Source: Campylobacteraceae bacterium (GTDB lineage: Bacteria > Campylobacterota > Campylobacteria > Campylobacterales > Arcobacteraceae). From it: a stretch of DNA of 64,000 bases. How positions within the stretch are numbered: the stretch's first letter is position 1; each line of letters starts with the position of its first letter. A program made the position numbers and the translations under genes. The notes beneath the pieces were generated by a model. The model ran no database searches, was not told the DNA's origin, and worked only from the letters and a program-made list of their open reading frames with translations. The stretch spans positions 62,001 through 126,000 of the forward strand of contig JABSOM010000004.1 in the NCBI GenBank assembly GCA_013215945.1, in the 5' to 3' direction. Shown here piece after piece: positions 39,117-45,689 of this stretch.

Positions 39117-39299
39117 CTAAGGTTTTTTATTGTTATCATTTAAAAGTGTTTTTAATTTTTTAGAAATAAAATATAAAAATATTACAGATACTAAAATCAT
39201 CGCATCAAATTGAATATTGTTATAATCTTCATGTAAATACGATGATACCATACTTCCAAGTAAAAAAATAACGATAAAAATAACGATATTTTTAATCAT
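39117..39299 (-). CDS. small two-helix membrane protein downstream of the Zur-like gene
   Basis: 60 residues with two hydrophobic segments (about 4-20 and 32-46), a short polar loop SYLHEDYNNIQFD and a basic C-terminal tail. No family recognised. It overlaps the Fur-type repressor by 8 bp on the same strand, which argues for a real, co-transcribed gene. A cytoplasmic C terminus with many Lys fits the positive-inside rule. Confidence 0.5.
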   Translation of the reverse strand: MIKNIVIFIVIFLLGSMVSSYLHEDYNNIQFDAMILVSVIFLYFISKKLKTLLNDNNKKP

Positions 39300-39672
39300 T
39301 AAGTTCTTTCATACAGAATTGGCAAATACCTTTTATGATGACATTTTCAATTTTATATCCAGGTAAAGAGATATTGGATTTTTCACTTAAACATTCAATT
39401 TTAGAACAAGTTGAACAAACAAAATGAGAATGGGCATTTTTTTTAATTTCAAAATATCTTTTTTTATCATTGCTTTCAAAAGAATTAACAATGTTTTCTT
39501 CTTCAAATTTTGAAATATTTCTATAAAATGTGGCTTTGTCCATTAATAAGTTTTCTTTGATATCTTCATAAGACAGTGGTTTGGTGCTTTTTGCAAATAT
39601 TTCTAGAATTGCGACTCTTGCAGAGGTTAACTTTATATTTGTATTTAATACTAGTGCTTCAATATTTTTCAT
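39292..39672 (-). CDS. zur: Fur-family repressor, probably Zur
   Basis: 126 residues. N-terminal winged helix at about 8-75 (LTSARVAILEIFAKSTKPLSYEDI, DKATFYRNISKFEEENIV), then the dimerisation part with two CxxC zinc sites: CSTC (about 94-97) and CQFC. HSHFVCSTCSKIECL is the characteristic block. Its operator-like palindromes stand in front of its own gene and of two znu units, so a zinc-sensing role is inferred rather than iron or peroxide. Divergent from znuA with two operator copies between. Confidence 0.82.
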   Translation of the reverse strand: MKNIEALVLNTNIKLTSARVAILEIFAKSTKPLSYEDIKENLLMDKATFYRNISKFEEENIVNSFESNDKKRYFEIKKNAHSHFVCSTCSKIECLSEKSNISLPGYKIENVIIKGICQFCMKELND

Positions 39673-39697
39673 AAAGAATTATATCATAAATAACACT

Positions 39698-39712
39698 TGC
39701 AACTAAGTTGCA
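39698..39712. promoter_or_regulatory. Zur-box candidate 1
   Basis: TGCAACTAAGTTGCA, a perfect 7-1-7 palindrome in the zur-znuA spacer, 26 bp before the zur start. Confidence 0.78.
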
Positions 39713-39746
39713 TCAAAGCTAAGTTTTTATATTATTCACTTAACAA

Positions 39747-39761
39747 TGCATCTTAGTTGCA
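39747..39761. promoter_or_regulatory. Zur-box candidate 2
   Basis: TGCATCTTAGTTGCA, one base off the perfect 7-1-7 palindrome, 14 bp before the znuA GTG, so positioned to block its transcription. Confidence 0.72.
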
Positions 39762-39774
39762 AAAAAGGAAAAAA

Positions 39775-40650
39775 GTGAAAATATTTTTAATTTCAATATT
39801 TTTAATCATTCAAAGTTATGCTTATGAAGTAACAGTAAGTATCTTACCTCAAAAATATTTTGTAGAAAAAATAGCAAAAAATAAAGTAAATATCAATGTT
39901 ATGGTCAAACCCGGTTTCTCCCCAGCAACCTATGCACCAAGAACATCACAAATGAGAAAATTAAGTAAGTCCTCAATATATTTTTACATAGGCGTTCCTT
40001 TTGAAAATGCATGGTTAGATAAGTTTGCTTATTCAAATAAAAAAATGCTTATGATCGACTCTTCCAAAAACATTAAAAAATTAGAAATGCTTGCACATGA
40101 GCATCATGAAGAAGAACATGAAGAAAACCACGAAGAAGAAAATCATCATGAAGATGATGAAGAACACACGGGACTTGACCCTCATACATGGACAGACCCT
40201 TCTTTAGTAAAAATTCATGCAAAAAATATCTTAGAAGCATTGATTAAAGTAGATGAAAAAAACACTTCCTTTTATACAAAAAATTACAATTCTTTTATAG
40301 AAGAATTATCCTTACTTGATAATAAAATAAAAGATATTTTAAAAGATAAAAAAGAGAGTGCTTTTATGGTTTTTCATCCTTCATGGAGTTATTTTGCACG
40401 AGCCTATCATTTAGAGCAAATTGCAGTTGAGAAAGAAGGAAAAGAACCCAAAGTTAAAGAAATTATTGCTTTAGTAAAAGAAGCAAAAGAACATAAAATA
40501 AAAACACTTTTCGTAAGCCCTCAGTTCTCACAAAATGCAGCAAGAAAGATTGCAAAAGCAATTAATGGAACAGTACTTAGTGTAGATTCCCTAGCCTATA
40601 AATGGGATGAAAACTTACTAAATATCGCTAAAACCATCAAAAATCAATAA
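39775..40650 (+). CDS. znuA: ZnuA-type zinc-binding protein 1, lacking the first His ligand
   Basis: Periplasmic binding protein of a zinc ABC importer, 291 residues from GTG 39775, chosen because AAGGAA sits 9 bp upstream and the signal peptide (about 1-16) starts there; a TTG at 39757 inside the Zur box is rejected. A His/Glu-rich loop (HEHHEEEHEENHEEENHHEDDEEH) follows about residue 104. The usual first zinc ligand in DPHTYEP reads SPATYAP (A51). The second (LDPHTW), third (VFHPSWSYF) and the C-terminal Asp (SVDSLA) are kept. Start of a two-gene unit with the NicO-like gene. Confidence 0.85.
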   Translation: MKIFLISIFLIIQSYAYEVTVSILPQKYFVEKIAKNKVNINVMVKPGFSPATYAPRTSQMRKLSKSSIYFYIGVPFENAWLDKFAYSNKKMLMIDSSKNIKKLEMLAHEHHEEEHEENHEEENHHEDDEEHTGLDPHTWTDPSLVKIHAKNILEALIKVDEKNTSFYTKNYNSFIEELSLLDNKIKDILKDKKESAFMVFHPSWSYFARAYHLEQIAVEKEGKEPKVKEIIALVKEAKEHKIKTLFVSPQFSQNAARKIAKAINGTVLSVDSLAYKWDENLLNIAKTIKNQ

Positions 40651-40652
40651 AA

Positions 40653-42065
40653 ATGAAAAAAGTAATATTTCTCTTACTTTTTTTACAAGCTTTTCTTTTA
40701 TCTTGTGAGATTTGTGTTTTATCTACCCCTAAAACATCCGTTTTAGTAAACGTAGTCTCTAGTAAAACACATATACAAAAGATTGACTTTATCTGGATTG
40801 TATCAAAAGAATTCACCTCTAGTTTAAATCAAATTTATGATCAAAATACCAATAAAATATTGGATGAAAATGAGATAGAGAATATCTATAATGCTTTTAT
40901 TTCTTATGTTAGACCTAAAGATTATTTAACAAAAATTTTTTATTATGAAAATAAAGAAACAAAAGTACTTGAAAAAAACATCATCTTAGCCGATGATGTT
41001 TATATAAAGAATGAGCGTTTACACTTAAGTTATAGTATAGAACTAAAAAAAGAGATTAAAAATAATTATAAATTGGATATCGAAGTTTTTGATGAAAATC
41101 AATATTTTGACTTAAAAATAAGCAAAGAATATTCAAGTTTCAAACAAGTTAGTACAGAAAAAGAAAGTGATTTAAGTGGCATTCTTTTTACAATTTCTAC
41201 AAGAAATACAATCAAACCCCAAGTAGAAAATGAAGAAATAAAAATCACAGTAAATAAAGAAGAGAAAAAAGAACGTTCTTATCTGCAAAACTATTCTTTA
41301 AAAATCAAAAAATATTTACAAGATATAAAAGAAGGAAAAGACAATCTTGCTCTCGTATTTTTACTCTTTGTTTCTTTTATTTATGGAATAATTCATGCCA
41401 TTGGTCCAGGGCATGGAAAATCTTTAGCTTTTTCATATTTTTTAATTAATAAAACTTCTGTATCAAAAGCGTTTGCGATATCTCTAGCTACTGCTTTCAT
41501 TCATATTTTAGGAGCTTTTATTTTAGTATTGATTTCTGTTTTTATTTTAGATTCTTTTTTAAATTCGTTTGTAAATGACTCAATTTATATGCTTACTAAA
41601 ATCTCAGCAGTTTTAATTATTTTACTGGCTTTTTTTATACTTTATAATAAAATATACAAAAAATCTTGTTTTTGCAGGTCTTGTCAAACTCCCAAAAAAG
41701 AGAATAATCTTATACAGGCAAATGATTTTAATAAAATGTCATGGTCAAATGTAAAAATAGATAAACAACAAAAAAGCAAAACAAATAAACAAGAGCTATA
41801 TTTTGTATTAACAGCGGGATTAATACCCTGCCCAGGAACTGTTATTTTATTTATTTATGCTTTTGTATTAAAAACTTATTTTGCTGTAATCTTAGCTAGT
41901 ATTTTCATTTCTTTAGGAATGGGATTGGTTATTTTTGCCTCAGCTTTTATGGGCTTGGGATTCAAACAATTATCACATAATTCTCACAAAATATCCTCTG
42001 TTTTAGAGTATGTAGCAATTCTAGTAATGTTAATACTTGGAATAGTATTATACTTCTCATTTTAA
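40653..42065 (+). CDS. DUF1007-NicO (RcnA-type) membrane protein
   Basis: 470 residues. Signal/anchor at about 4-17, a DUF1007-like periplasmic domain (about 25-190), then a membrane domain (about 228-468) with NicO/RcnA-type segments HAIGPGHGKSLAFSYF, then IHILGAFILV and AGLIPCPGTVILF. NicO proteins usually export nickel or cobalt; here the gene is directly behind znuA, 3 bp away, and under the same operator, so a zinc-related transport role is suggested by context. About seven membrane helices. Confidence 0.8.
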   Translation: MKKVIFLLLFLQAFLLSCEICVLSTPKTSVLVNVVSSKTHIQKIDFIWIVSKEFTSSLNQIYDQNTNKILDENEIENIYNAFISYVRPKDYLTKIFYYENKETKVLEKNIILADDVYIKNERLHLSYSIELKKEIKNNYKLDIEVFDENQYFDLKISKEYSSFKQVSTEKESDLSGILFTISTRNTIKPQVENEEIKITVNKEEKKERSYLQNYSLKIKKYLQDIKEGKDNLALVFLLFVSFIYGIIHAIGPGHGKSLAFSYFLINKTSVSKAFAISLATAFIHILGAFILVLISVFILDSFLNSFVNDSIYMLTKISAVLIILLAFFILYNKIYKKSCFCRSCQTPKKENNLIQANDFNKMSWSNVKIDKQQKSKTNKQELYFVLTAGLIPCPGTVILFIYAFVLKTYFAVILASIFISLGMGLVIFASAFMGLGFKQLSHNSHKISSVLEYVAILVMLILGIVLYFSF

Positions 42066-42075
42066 TGTAAGTTTG

Positions 42076-42105
42076 TTTTGTAAGTAGTTAAATCTACTTA
42101 CAAAA
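42076..42105. terminator. bidirectional terminator between NicO-like gene and znuB
   Basis: 12-bp perfect stem TTTTGTAAGTAG / CTACTTACAAAA with a 6-base loop, between convergent stop codons. Confidence 0.8.
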
Positions 42106-42921
42106 CTATTTAAAAATTTTTGTATATATTTTTTCAACAATAATTTGTACAAACATACATAAAGATGAGATTAAGATGATAGAAGGACCTGAACTTAAAT
42201 CATAACTATAGGATACAAACAGACCTAATATTGTGAAAACAGAAGAAAAAGAAGCAGAATAAATCATCATTTCTAATAAAGAATTAGCAAATCTTGATGC
42301 TATATAAGTAGGAATACTTAAGAGTGCAATCACCAATATAAGTCCAACTATTTTAATAGCAATAACTATACTAATCGAAGCCATTAAAAGTATTATTGTA
42401 TAAAATACTCTTGTTCTTATTCCTCTTAACTTTGCATATGTTGTATCATATGAGACAGCCAGAATATCTCTGTAAAAACAACTCAAAATAATTAGTATTA
42501 CAAAAAGTATGCTTGACATAAAAATAATATCATCAGAACTAACGGCTAAAATAGACCCAAATAAATACGAAATCAAATCCGCATGATAACCAGGCGTAAT
42601 ATCAACTAATAAAATACCAAAAGACATTCCAAGAGCCCAAGTAAGACCAATAACGCTATCAAGTTTTTCTCTATTTTTATAAGTTAACATTGCAATAAAC
42701 AAAGTAACTACAATTGAAAATAAAGACGTAGTTAATAACATAGGAAGTGAAAAATAAATAGATAATCCAATTCCACCATAAGCACTATGTGCAATTCCTC
42801 CTGATAAAAATACCATTCTATTAACAACTATTAAGGAACCAATTATCCCAGAAATTATACTTATAATAAATCCTGAAATAAGCGCATTTTGAATAAAAGT
42901 ATATTCCAGAGCTTCTAACAT
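42106..42921 (-). CDS. znuB: zinc ABC transporter permease
   Basis: Membrane permease, 271 residues with about eight hydrophobic segments. Family features are GSLIVVNRMVFLSGGIAHSAYGGIG near 27-51 (the conserved Gly/Ala/His region of ABC-3 permeases) and GIRTRVFY. It overlaps znuC by 7 bp. Part of a znuA-znuC-znuB unit. Confidence 0.92.
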   Translation of the reverse strand: MLEALEYTFIQNALISGFIISIISGIIGSLIVVNRMVFLSGGIAHSAYGGIGLSIYFSLPMLLTTSLFSIVVTLFIAMLTYKNREKLDSVIGLTWALGMSFGILLVDITPGYHADLISYLFGSILAVSSDDIIFMSSILFVILIILSCFYRDILAVSYDTTYAKLRGIRTRVFYTIILLMASISIVIAIKIVGLILVIALLSIPTYIASRFANSLLEMMIYSASFSSVFTILGLFVSYSYDLSSGPSIILISSLCMFVQIIVEKIYTKIFK

Positions 42922-43664
42922 TTACATCTTCCTAACATTTGTAATAATTCAATTTCACAGGTATTTGAATTAAGATTGACAAACTCGTCTTTCATTTTAC
43001 CAAGGTCGTGAAAAGTGAGTTCTTTATTAATATAAACAGCTTTATTTGCATATTTTAAAACCAAAGCTAAATCATGGGAGATTACAATTATTGTGATTGT
43101 TTCATTTAATTTTTTTAGTATTTTATAGATTTGTTCACAGGCTAAAATATCTAAACTTGATGTTGGTTCATCTAATAAAATAATTTTAGCATTTCCAAAT
43201 AAAGCCCGTGCAATAAGAACTTTTTGTTTCTGTCCACCTGAAAGTTCTCCCATCTTTTTATTACAATAGTCTTGCATATTAACTTTTTTCAAAGCATTCA
43301 AAGCTTCTGTTTTTTCCTCTTTAGAATAAAAAAAGAATCTTTTTTTCATAGAATTTTGAGCCATCATAACAACTTCTAGTACCTTTATTGGAAAATGAGT
43401 ATTTACATTGGTATTTTGGGGAACATAAGCTATATTTTGTGTTTCTTTAAAAAGCTCCTTATTAAAAATATGGATAGAACCACCTTGAAGTTTTTCAATA
43501 CCCAAAATTAATTTAATCAAAGTACTTTTCCCTCCACCATTGGGGCCTAAAATTGTTAAAAAGTCTTTTTCTTTAACCTCAAGATTTATATTTTTTAATA
43601 CGAAATCTTGATCGTATTTAAAATATAAATCTTTAATATTTATTGCATTATTTATAGTCTGCAA
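42915..43664 (-). CDS. znuC: zinc ABC transporter ATPase
   Basis: 249 residues. Walker A GPNGGGKSTL (about 39-48), Q-loop VPQNTN, signature LSGGQKQK, Walker B KIILLDEPT and H-loop VISHD. It overlaps the znuA2 end by 17 bp and the znuB start by 7 bp. The C-terminal CKC end is unusual and may bind metal. Confidence 0.93.
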   Translation of the reverse strand: MQTINNAINIKDLYFKYDQDFVLKNINLEVKEKDFLTILGPNGGGKSTLIKLILGIEKLQGGSIHIFNKELFKETQNIAYVPQNTNVNTHFPIKVLEVVMMAQNSMKKRFFFYSKEEKTEALNALKKVNMQDYCNKKMGELSGGQKQKVLIARALFGNAKIILLDEPTSSLDILACEQIYKILKKLNETITIIVISHDLALVLKYANKAVYINKELTFHDLGKMKDEFVNLNSNTCEIELLQMLGRCKC

Positions 43665-44943
43665 TTGCTTTTGCCATATTAATTAGGTTTTCACTCCAGT
43701 TAGAAGCTAAAGGCGTTTCTTTTATAACTTGAATATTTAATTGATCTGCTATAGTTTTCGCACTTTTATCTGAAAATTCTTTTTGAGCAAAAATTGCATT
43801 TACATTTAGCTTTCTGGCTTCATCAATAATTCTTTTTAAGGTTTTTGGTTTTGGTTCTTTTCCTTCAATTTCAATAACAAATTGTTTTAATGAATAGTCT
43901 TTTGCAAAATATCCCCATGATGGATGAAAAACCATAAAGTTAGATGCTAATGGCAAGTCAAGGAAGATTTCTCTAATTTTATTATCAGTATATGAAATTT
44001 CATTTAAGAACTTAACATAATTCTTTTTGTAATATTCTTTATTTGTTGAATCCATTTTCACTAAAGCATTATAAATATTTTTTGCGATTAGTTTTACTCT
44101 AGAGGGACTGGTCCATATATGAGGGTCTTTATTTCCAGCATGATTATGCGCATCATGAGTAGCTGATTCAGGTTCTTGATGTATTGCTTCAATATCTGCG
44201 TTTTTATTATTTTTAAAAAAATGCGCATTATTTTCAAATTCACTAGGAAGATGTTGAGTAAATATTACATAATTTCCTTCTTTTTTAATCTCAATATTTA
44301 TTTTTGTGATATCTTTATTTTGATTAAATTCAATATCATATAAAGTGTTTATTTTATTTAATACCGTTAAATCATGTTTTACAAGTGCTTTTTCATTAGA
44401 GAATATTTTATTGGCTTTTTTTTCTAATTTTTCAATTCCTTTTTCACTCTTATCATCTGTTCTTAAAATTAGCATTTTCACTTTATCATCTGCATATTTT
44501 GAATCAATTTTTGCAAAACTCCATGTATATGTAGATTTTTTAAGATTAAATAAACCCGCCCATTCATAAGAATTTTCTTCTTCATGCAGAGCATGTTCAT
44601 TATGATGTTCGTTGTGTTTTGGCATTTGTATATAAGAAATCCCTTTAGTTATATCAATAACATTCATTTTTTTGTTTAGTTCAATAAACTTAGGTAACCA
44701 TACATTTTCAAATTCAATTCCGATTGGAAAATAAATATCTGCTTTTGAAACTTTAATCATTTGAGAAGGTTTTGGTTCATAGGTATGAGGATCAAAACCT
44801 GGTTTTACCATTGAAGTTACATTCACTTTATTTCCTCCAATTTTTTCAACAAATGTTTTTTGAGGCAAAATACTCACAACTACGTTTGTTTTAGCGTATG
44901 CAAACGTTGAGATTAACAATACTACTGTAATTATATTTTTCAT
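43648..44943 (-). CDS. znuA: ZnuA-type zinc-binding protein 2 with an inserted domain
   Basis: 431 residues from ATG 44943 (signal peptide to about 17, FAYAK); an earlier in-frame ATG at 44979 is less likely. First zinc ligand H53 in FDPHTYEP, second in DPHIWTSP (about 275) and third in VFHPSWGYF are all kept. Between ligands one and two sit a His-rich stretch (about 110-121), an inserted domain (about 126-244, starting YEWAGLF and with TWSFAKIDSKYADDKVKMLI), and another His-rich stretch (about 263-274). The insert is not from any domain I can name. Confidence 0.88.
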   Translation of the reverse strand: MKNIITVVLLISTFAYAKTNVVVSILPQKTFVEKIGGNKVNVTSMVKPGFDPHTYEPKPSQMIKVSKADIYFPIGIEFENVWLPKFIELNKKMNVIDITKGISYIQMPKHNEHHNEHALHEEENSYEWAGLFNLKKSTYTWSFAKIDSKYADDKVKMLILRTDDKSEKGIEKLEKKANKIFSNEKALVKHDLTVLNKINTLYDIEFNQNKDITKINIEIKKEGNYVIFTQHLPSEFENNAHFFKNNKNADIEAIHQEPESATHDAHNHAGNKDPHIWTSPSRVKLIAKNIYNALVKMDSTNKEYYKKNYVKFLNEISYTDNKIREIFLDLPLASNFMVFHPSWGYFAKDYSLKQFVIEIEGKEPKPKTLKRIIDEARKLNVNAIFAQKEFSDKSAKTIADQLNIQVIKETPLASNWSENLINMAKAIADYK

Positions 44944-44963
44944 AAAATTCCTTTTCTTTTTTT

Positions 44964-44978
44964 TGCAACTTAGTCGCA
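44964..44978. promoter_or_regulatory. Zur-box candidate 3
   Basis: TGCAACTTAGTCGCA, one mismatch from the 7-1-7 palindrome, 21 bp upstream of znuA2. Confidence 0.72.
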
Positions 44979-45009
44979 TATTTGGAAGAATAGCTACTTT
45001 TTTCTTTAA

Positions 45010-45024
45010 TGCAACTTAGTCGCA
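45010..45024. promoter_or_regulatory. Zur-box candidate 4
   Basis: TGCAACTTAGTCGCA, identical to candidate 3 and 46 bp away, in the znuA2 / ribA-like spacer. Confidence 0.72.
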
Positions 45025-45076
45025 AAAATATTCTGTTTTAATTTATTTTTCAGCAATAATGTTTTATCATTACATA

Positions 45077-45091
45077 TGCAACTAAGTTGCA
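45077..45091. promoter_or_regulatory. Zur-box candidate 5
   Basis: TGCAACTAAGTTGCA, a perfect palindrome identical to candidate 1, 22 bp before the ribA-like ATG. Confidence 0.78.
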
Positions 45092-45113
45092 AATAAATAT
45101 TAGAAGCATAAAT

Positions 45114-45689
45114 ATGGAAATCAAACAATCAGAAATAGCCAAACTACCCACTAAGTTTGGAGACTTTTTAATAAAAGCATATAATTATAATAATCAAGAA
45201 CATTTTGTATTAATGAGCAAAGATTACAGTAAAAAGGAAAACATCAATGTAAGAATACACAGCGAATGTTTAACTGGAGATATTTTTTCTTCCCTTAAAT
45301 GTGATTGCCAAAATCAATTAAACCAAGCCATAGAGTTTATTTCAAAAGAAAGTGGAATAATAATCTATCATAGACAAGAAGGAAGAAATATTGGTTTAGT
45401 AAATAAAATAAACGCTTATGCACTTCAAGATAAAGGACGCAATACAATTGAAGCAAATTTGGAACTTGGATTTAAAGAAGATGAAAGAGATTATTTTATT
45501 ATTGGGTATATTTTTGAAGATTTAGACATAAAAAATATAAATTTGATTACCAATAATCCAAAAAAGATTTCTTATGTGGAATCCTTAGGAATTAATATAA
45601 ATAAGATTCTTCCTTCGATTACAAAAATAAATCAATACAACAAAGAATACTTAAATACGAAAAAAGAACATTTTGGACATTTTTTGTAA
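45114..45689 (+). CDS. GTP cyclohydrolase II paralogue under Zur-type operators
   Basis: 191 residues from ATG 45114 (a TTG at 45087 lies in the operator and is rejected). The GTP cyclohydrolase II core has zinc ligands C52, C63 and C65 (HSECLTGDIFSSLKCDC), HRQEGRNIGLVNKINAYALQDKG and LITNNPKK. GCH II opens GTP at the start of riboflavin synthesis. Divergent from znuA2, with a Zur-box 22 bp before its start. The zinc cysteines are intact, so it is not a simple zinc-free replacement. Confidence 0.82.
   Translation: MEIKQSEIAKLPTKFGDFLIKAYNYNNQEHFVLMSKDYSKKENINVRIHSECLTGDIFSSLKCDCQNQLNQAIEFISKESGIIIYHRQEGRNIGLVNKINAYALQDKGRNTIEANLELGFKEDERDYFIIGYIFEDLDIKNINLITNNPKKISYVESLGININKILPSITKINQYNKEYLNTKKEHFGHFL

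Follow-up and report, generated by a model that had tools for sequence, protein, structure and literature searches.

The 470-aa DUF1007-NicO fusion protein encoded behind znuA1 probably serves as a second importer of zinc and not as a nickel pump. Judged from its sequence and genomic context, it would be a one-chain zinc permease of the ZevA-ZevB type, made under zinc starvation and working in parallel to ZnuABC, a reading that we consider reasonably probable. The window (the whole stretch of 64,000 nucleotides that was analysed) belongs to a genome of 3.24 Mb in 28 contigs. Its zinc cluster spans positions 39292-45689 and comprises zur, znuA1, the fusion gene, znuB, znuC, znuA2, a GTP cyclohydrolase II gene and five Zur boxes (Table 1). 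zur is located on the minus strand and followed by two Zur boxes, by znuA1 and the fusion gene on the plus strand and by znuB, znuC and znuA2 on the minus strand. Three further Zur boxes and the GTP cyclohydrolase II gene (+) form the right end. The original prediction, a DUF1007-NicO gene that follows znuA under a Zur-type operator, was borne out: One 470-aa ORF contains both Pfam domains, and two palindromic boxes are present. The proposed gap of 3 bp has to be corrected to 2 bp, since znuA1 ends at 40650 and the fusion starts at 40653. A profile search of the genome detected the fusion as the sole DUF1007 protein. The second NicO match is weak and concerns a 222-aa protein encoded at another location.

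Table 1. Features of the zinc cluster and of the fusion protein (positions in the window).
Feature	Position	Strand	Remarks
zur, Fur-family regulator, divergent from znuA1	39292..39672	-	PF01475, 59.1 bits
Zur box 1, TGCAACTAAGTTGCA, perfect palindrome	39698..39712		27.0 bits
Zur box 2, TGCATCTTAGTTGCA	39747..39761		18.2 bits; 13 bp upstream of likely GTG start of znuA1
znuA1, periplasmic zinc-binding protein	39757..40650	+	PF01297, 217.6 bits
DUF1007-NicO fusion (ZevA-ZevB type)	40653..42065	+	Single ORF, 470 aa
Signal sequence, aa 1-17	40653..40703	+	Helix 2-24 in model
C18-x-x-C21 at expected mature N-terminus	40704..40715	+	Both invariant, 73/73 fused proteins
DUF1007 domain, aa 34-159, periplasmic beta-sandwich	40752..41129	+	Pfam; AlphaFold2
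EF-hand-like loop, aa 63-74 (D63, N65, E74)	40839..40874	+	D63 and E74 invariant, 73/73
NicO domain, aa 235-470	41355..42062	+	Pfam; model: six long helices, two broken-helix repeats
HAIGPGHGK motif, aa 248-256 (H248, H254)	41394..41420	+	H248, H254, H284 invariant, 73/73
C339-x-C341-x-x-C344 loop between NicO repeats	41667..41684	+	Three Cys in 67/73
PCPGT motif, aa 392-396 (C393)	41826..41840	+	C393 invariant, 73/73
znuB	42106..42921	-	PF00950, 222.8 bits
znuC	42915..43664	-	PF00005
znuA2, retains first zinc-ligand His (DPHTYEP)	43648..44979	-	PF01297 in two stretches
Zur box upstream of znuA2	44964..44978		Matrix and genome scan
Zur box between znuA2 and ribA	45010..45024		Matrix and genome scan
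Zur box upstream of ribA paralogue, perfect palindrome	45077..45091		Matrix and genome scan

The Fur-family gene was named zur from its context. Its orthologues are 56-98% identical and occupy the same position beside znuA in the family loci; the NCBIfam models for Zur, Fur and PerR all scored its product far under their cut-offs. Although znuA1 is listed to start with the TTG at 39757, the GTG at 39775, which is preceded by AAGGA, is the likelier true start. Boxes 1 and 2 are 15-bp palindromes that lie between the divergent zur and znuA1 genes and are common to both, and 15-base palindromes of the type TGCAACTWAGTTGCA recur 5' of znuA in relatives. On a Zur matrix comprising 111 sites from intergenic regions of the family, the two perfect sites of the window reach 27 bits each; the best control score over any of 20 first-order Markov windows was 17.7 bits. 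With at most one mismatch in the 13-base core, GCAACTWAGTTGC occurs five times in the whole 3.24-Mb genome, and all five sites are inside the zinc cluster, two before znuA1 and three before znuA2/ribA. At least one Zur box was found in 69 of the 72 family loci with a fusion; the three others are short contigs ending early. Zur boxes are the only metal-operator found for the fusion, which is probably switched on as zinc runs out. This agrees with the control by zinc starvation proposed originally, as does a lone fusion copy in Sulfurovum with a perfect Zur box beginning 56 bp before the ORF.

Some neighbouring genes have features of their own. The His-rich loop of ZnuA2 carries an additional insert of ~130-150 aa without a Pfam match. 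When the insert region was compared with PDB sequences, the sole significant match was a ZnuA-type sequence at the edge of the insert. ZnuA frames of similar length (about 430-470 aa) are present in several relatives. The RibA (GTP cyclohydrolase II) paralogue (45077-45689, plus strand) begins right behind a perfect Zur box. Contig 15 of the same genome carries one more full ribA copy, and contig 5 a partial match. In Vibrio cholerae, the Zur regulon includes ribA according to the available passages of PMC6103462. Contig 3 (L098, 6349-7167) encodes a ZnuA-like protein of 272 aa that lacks the usual His ligands and is not adjoined by ABC genes. Similar low-scoring ZnuA-like proteins of 262-290 aa are encoded in many relatives.

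In the fusion protein, Pfam recognized DUF1007 (PF06226) with 32.2 bits (cut-off 27) and NicO (PF03824) from aa 235 onwards with 63.6 bits (cut-off 27.7). The two domains are encoded by one ORF throughout, in the window as well as in the 73 aligned rows. Invariant among these 73 fused proteins are C18, C21, D63, E74, D147, H248, H254, H284 and C393. Signal cleavage before C18 is likely, since the preceding residue is G, A or S in all 73 homologues. A lipobox-like core, whose pattern we take to be that of PROSITE PS51257, is matched by 50 of the 73 proteins, so that C18 may be lipidated and serve as lipid-anchor cysteine. Lipidation of C18 leaves C21 unexplained. Among the matches listed with an EF-like loop, 22 of 24 stand-alone DUF1007 proteins from the same clade carry an N-terminal HxH (HPH). 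The two others are L022 (HPDY) and a 217-aa ORF in L264, which possibly contains no DUF1007. The fused proteins do not have this His-Pro-His mature N-terminus, but C18 and C21.

For the DUF1007 domain alone, AlphaFold2 yielded a confident beta-sandwich (pLDDT 90.3). The NicO part was modelled as two repeats, and in both of them a helix is interrupted at the conserved motif. The C-x-C-x-x-C loop is probably on the cytoplasmic side, because the N-terminal domain is periplasmic and three membrane crossings precede the loop. Foldseek and VIA-align gave no clear match to the DUF1007 fold: The best one, 3igq (Z 8.4, rmsd 4.1, 144 aligned), was tied with other ligand-gated channel ectodomains. The lack of a match carries no weight either way. 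A phmmer search against PDB sequences returned no match, a plasmid search five records matching the NicO part only, and a PHROGs search a single weak match of not known function. For the full fusion model, ZrgA of V. cholerae was found at rank 7 with an E value of 0.12, which is no demonstrated fold match. ZrgA is described in the accessible part of PMC9820375 as a periplasmic zinc protein from a zinc-regulated operon that works with an ABC pump.

As to the metal, the direction of import and the path, we infer the following. On a fall in zinc, Zur would be released from both boxes, allowing expression of zur, znuA1 and the fusion gene. The signal sequence would take the DUF1007 domain to the periplasm, where the Cys-x-x-Cys of the mature N-terminus and nearby residues may pick up Zn2+. 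On a flexible linker, the domain would hand zinc to the NicO permease. The putative zinc path is lined by H248, H254, H284 and C393. From there, zinc would pass on to the Cys-x-Cys-x-x-Cys loop, which probably faces the cytoplasm. The originally suggested periplasmic DUF1007 domain that serves the membrane part is supported. The fusion would work beside ZnuABC and not in its place, and we expect ZnuA1 to be the binding protein of the ZnuBC pumps whose genes lie nearby and on another contig.

The genomic context was surveyed in the family of the window genome. PF06226 was found in at least 66 of 104 family genomes, where this count and the one for the class are lower bounds, since the Pfam DUF1007 model overlooks many fused proteins at the znuA locus. 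In total, 86 family loci were considered, i.e. PF06226 matches with a long open frame and the znuA loci of some genomes without a match. As they were picked for holding the fusion or znuA, they measure context and not prevalence. A fusion of >380 aa is encoded at 72 of these loci, a broken fusion at two and none at 12. Interrupted fusion genes consist of two ORFs in L064 and a shortened ORF in L052, due to decay or assembly error. DUF1007-NicO genes beside znuA recur in other genomes: znuA is located directly 5' of the fusion at 63 of the 72 loci, with gaps between -55 and +3 (commonest -4). The order is znuA-znuC-znuB-fusion at five loci, and at the remaining four, znuA is divergent, absent or beyond the contig.

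This two-gene order, mostly with overlapping ends, would suit the original idea of a non-ABC uptake pair in place of ZnuBC, with DUF1007 as the docking site from which ZnuA1 passes zinc to the NicO part. The first zinc-ligand His points in the same direction. In ZnuA1 of the window, it is replaced by Ala (SPATYAP). Among 62 readable ZnuA proteins beside an intact fusion, 39 have Ala, one Thr and 22 His, whereas without an intact fusion, His is kept in nine of ten readable rows. However, several results make such a pair unlikely. A ZnuB-type permease (PF00950) is encoded in 71 of the 72 fusion-bearing genomes, and the exception, G020, is a 76%-complete assembly. In the family, PF00950 was found in 98 of 104 genomes (with a weak match in G100) and ZIP-family matches in 38 of 104. 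znuCB lacking an own znuA is present elsewhere in the genome at 40 loci from 39 genomes (one counted twice). A Zur box lies just before znuC at 26 of these 40 loci; 14 lack a box, and one of them is the znuA-less znuCB of the window genome (contig 7, L160). Furthermore, zur-znuA with Zur boxes but without the fusion was found at eight of the 86 loci (L175 and seven others from genus g2). The other fusion-less loci comprise two with znuA without adjoining zur and two without classified znuA. In the seven g2 loci, no fusion remnant was detected by tblastn. ZnuA1 therefore remains useful where the fusion is lacking, and its simplest role there would be that of binding protein for trans-encoded ZnuBC.

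The ligand loss in ZnuA1 was also rejected as proof of a partnership with the fusion. For 117 ZnuA proteins, a quick maximum-likelihood tree with long branches (L282, L285) requires at least three changes of the His/Ala state and at least six of fusion presence, and the two showed no association in five independent pairs. In this tree, fusion-less zur-znuA of genus g2 are nested among fusion-bearing relatives. In addition, Ala-type ZnuA occurs with znuCB in the same operon (L283).

Patterns of the fusion matched 301 stretches of a one-genome-per-species collection; 235 of them encoded relatives, and the best 80 of these 235 were kept. This set overlaps with the 86 family loci, and many genomes are common to both. 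The titles in the best 80 of 235 are nearly all Campylobacterota; the few metagenome titles that name others, e.g. Desulfosporosinus, look misbinned. The fusion directly follows znuA or znuB at 54 of the best 80 loci, with ZnuA as upstream neighbour in 29 cases, ZnuB in 25, another NicO in one and none in 17. The rest are contig starts (five) and broken or incomplete fusions (three). Among the 17 loci without upstream neighbour, L247 is actually a znuACB-fusion locus with a long overlap, and at L224, L227, L233, L250 and L257, zur or znu genes lie no further than ~4 kb away. At the class level, PF06226 was found in at least 130 of 397 genomes and at least 27 of 69 genera. A picked sample of 20 further class-level loci contains 13 with the order znuA-fusion-znuC-znuB, two with znuACB-fusion, one znuA-fusion without znuCB, one fusion-znuC-znuB at a contig start, one fusion beside zur opposite znuACB and two without znu genes. 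Zur boxes are present in 18 of these 20 picked loci. Most of them come from one family with 1.5-2.6-Mb genomes, probably the Campylobacteraceae. Since gene order varies and gene content is constant, the fusion would belong to the zinc system and not to ZnuA1 in particular. Its occurrence as one gene of a znuABC operon in other Campylobacterota also speaks against the pair. By contrast, the choice of zinc over nickel or cobalt in the original prediction is strengthened by fusions that follow zur, znuA or znuACB in several orders across the phylum.

Where the fusion gene lies inside a znuACB operon or closes it, and the reading frames overlap, this would also be compatible with a non-transporting accessory of ZnuABC that loads or protects ZnuA or ZnuB. 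Such a role is very unlikely: At other loci, no znu genes lie nearby and the fusion is either alone or accompanied by zevA/zevB, and the NicO motif residues H248, H254, H284 and C393 are kept in all 73 proteins. In a Sulfurospirillum-type operon (L239, L244, L254), genes for two stand-alone proteins flank that for the Cys-type fusion, NicO (zevB) on one side and HPH-type DUF1007 (zevA) on the other, with a Zur box in L244. On a Fusobacterium plasmid (L265, 4080-5705), genes for a DUF1007/DUF6702 protein and a NicO protein are divergent from nikBC. This suggests a nickel version of the DUF1007 and NicO pair and, as it adjoins nikBC, a family that is not zinc-only.

Export of Ni/Co is the best-known function of NicO/RcnA proteins. 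The fusion shares with them the NicO domain and H-rich/GPGHGK and PCPGT-type motifs, which we take to be kin to the RcnA/NicO motifs. The RcnA-type NCBIfam model PRK10019 scores 46.6 bits on the fusion, below its cut-off of 195. This kinship and the place in zinc-importer operons would fit a protective exporter whose NicO part expels wrongly imported Ni2+/Co2+ during induction of zinc uptake, with DUF1007 as periplasmic acceptor. We regard this as rather unlikely. Unlike RcnA, the fusion has a periplasmic domain in front, which would suit uptake better, and a Cys-rich instead of a His-rich loop: In none of the 73 fused proteins does the inter-repeat loop contain four or more His. RcnA is under Ni/Co control, whereas Zur boxes are the sole metal-operator found for the fusion, and the lone Sulfurovum copy keeps its box without an importer beside it.

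For the preferred zinc permease, ZevAB of Haemophilus influenzae, reportedly described by Rosadini in 2011, is a relevant comparison. We take ZevA to be a DUF1007 protein and ZevB to be NicO-like. Both systems would then combine a periplasmic DUF1007-type and a membrane NicO-type component with a link to zinc limitation. However, ZevAB presumably comprises two genes, zevA and zevB, whereas the fusion is one polypeptide, sits in a zur/znu locus and has Cys-x-x-Cys in place of the His-Pro-His start of stand-alone DUF1007 proteins. ZevAB is a zinc-binding system that aids growth of non-typeable H. influenzae in low zinc, as stated in an excerpt of PMC3872050, and appears in passages of further reviews (PMC8000910, PMC10563805). 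In Bordetella pertussis, BP3077-BP3082 comprise NicO and DUF1007 genes and a metal ABC importer in one operon, and the authors liken the ABC genes to a manganese importer (PMC9858536, in part). This operon differs from the fusion by separate genes and a TonB receptor.

The idea of a tethered catcher has been put forward for HupE/UreJ permeases with the anglerases Ang-1 and Ang-2 (2025; excerpts of PMC12537917). It provides a precedent for a permease with a tethered N-terminal metal catcher. The fusion resembles anglerases in having a periplasmic beta-sandwich, the putative metal catcher with a presumably metal-binding mature N-terminus, and an inner-membrane permease in one chain. By contrast, the mature N-terminus of anglerases is His and that of the fusion Cys18 in all 73 proteins. 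The anglerase permease is HupE/UreJ (PF13795), whereas Pfam found NicO and no PF13795 on the fusion. Furthermore, the fusion has Zur boxes, whereas Cu and Ni were the metals bound by the Ang domains tested. A word search in the available text of PMC12537917 found none of the terms DUF1007, NicO, ZevA and Zur. By analogy, the fusion may act like ZevAB or an anglerase, but it lacks the two-gene feature of the former and the His and HupE features of the latter. NikH of Helicobacter mustelae (nickel import) was discarded as a candidate, since the accessible literature passages call it a TonB-dependent receptor. In the open-licence PMC literature, no paper was found on the DUF1007-NicO fusion or its place in Campylobacterota znu operons.

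A more specific reading is possible, though doubtful: The fusion could be a zinc-dedicated Cys-tipped 'anglerase' that imports zinc as a single chain and independently of ABC proteins across Campylobacterota. The tethered DUF1007 domain would then catch Zn2+ with its mature N-terminal Cys-x-x-Cys and feed a NicO channel turned from Ni/Co export to zinc import. In the Arcobacteraceae, its flux may be large enough for ZnuA1 to tolerate the loss of the zinc-ligand His.

Family models that match such proteins label them nickel/cobalt transporters. If the fusion is the one-chain zinc permease favoured here, a NicO protein would act as zinc importer, and DUF1007 would be explained as a tethered metal-catching domain. 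The phylum with Arcobacter-type, Sulfurimonas-type and probably Campylobacter-type bacteria would then possess a second, non-ATP zinc route, which would blunt znu mutants.
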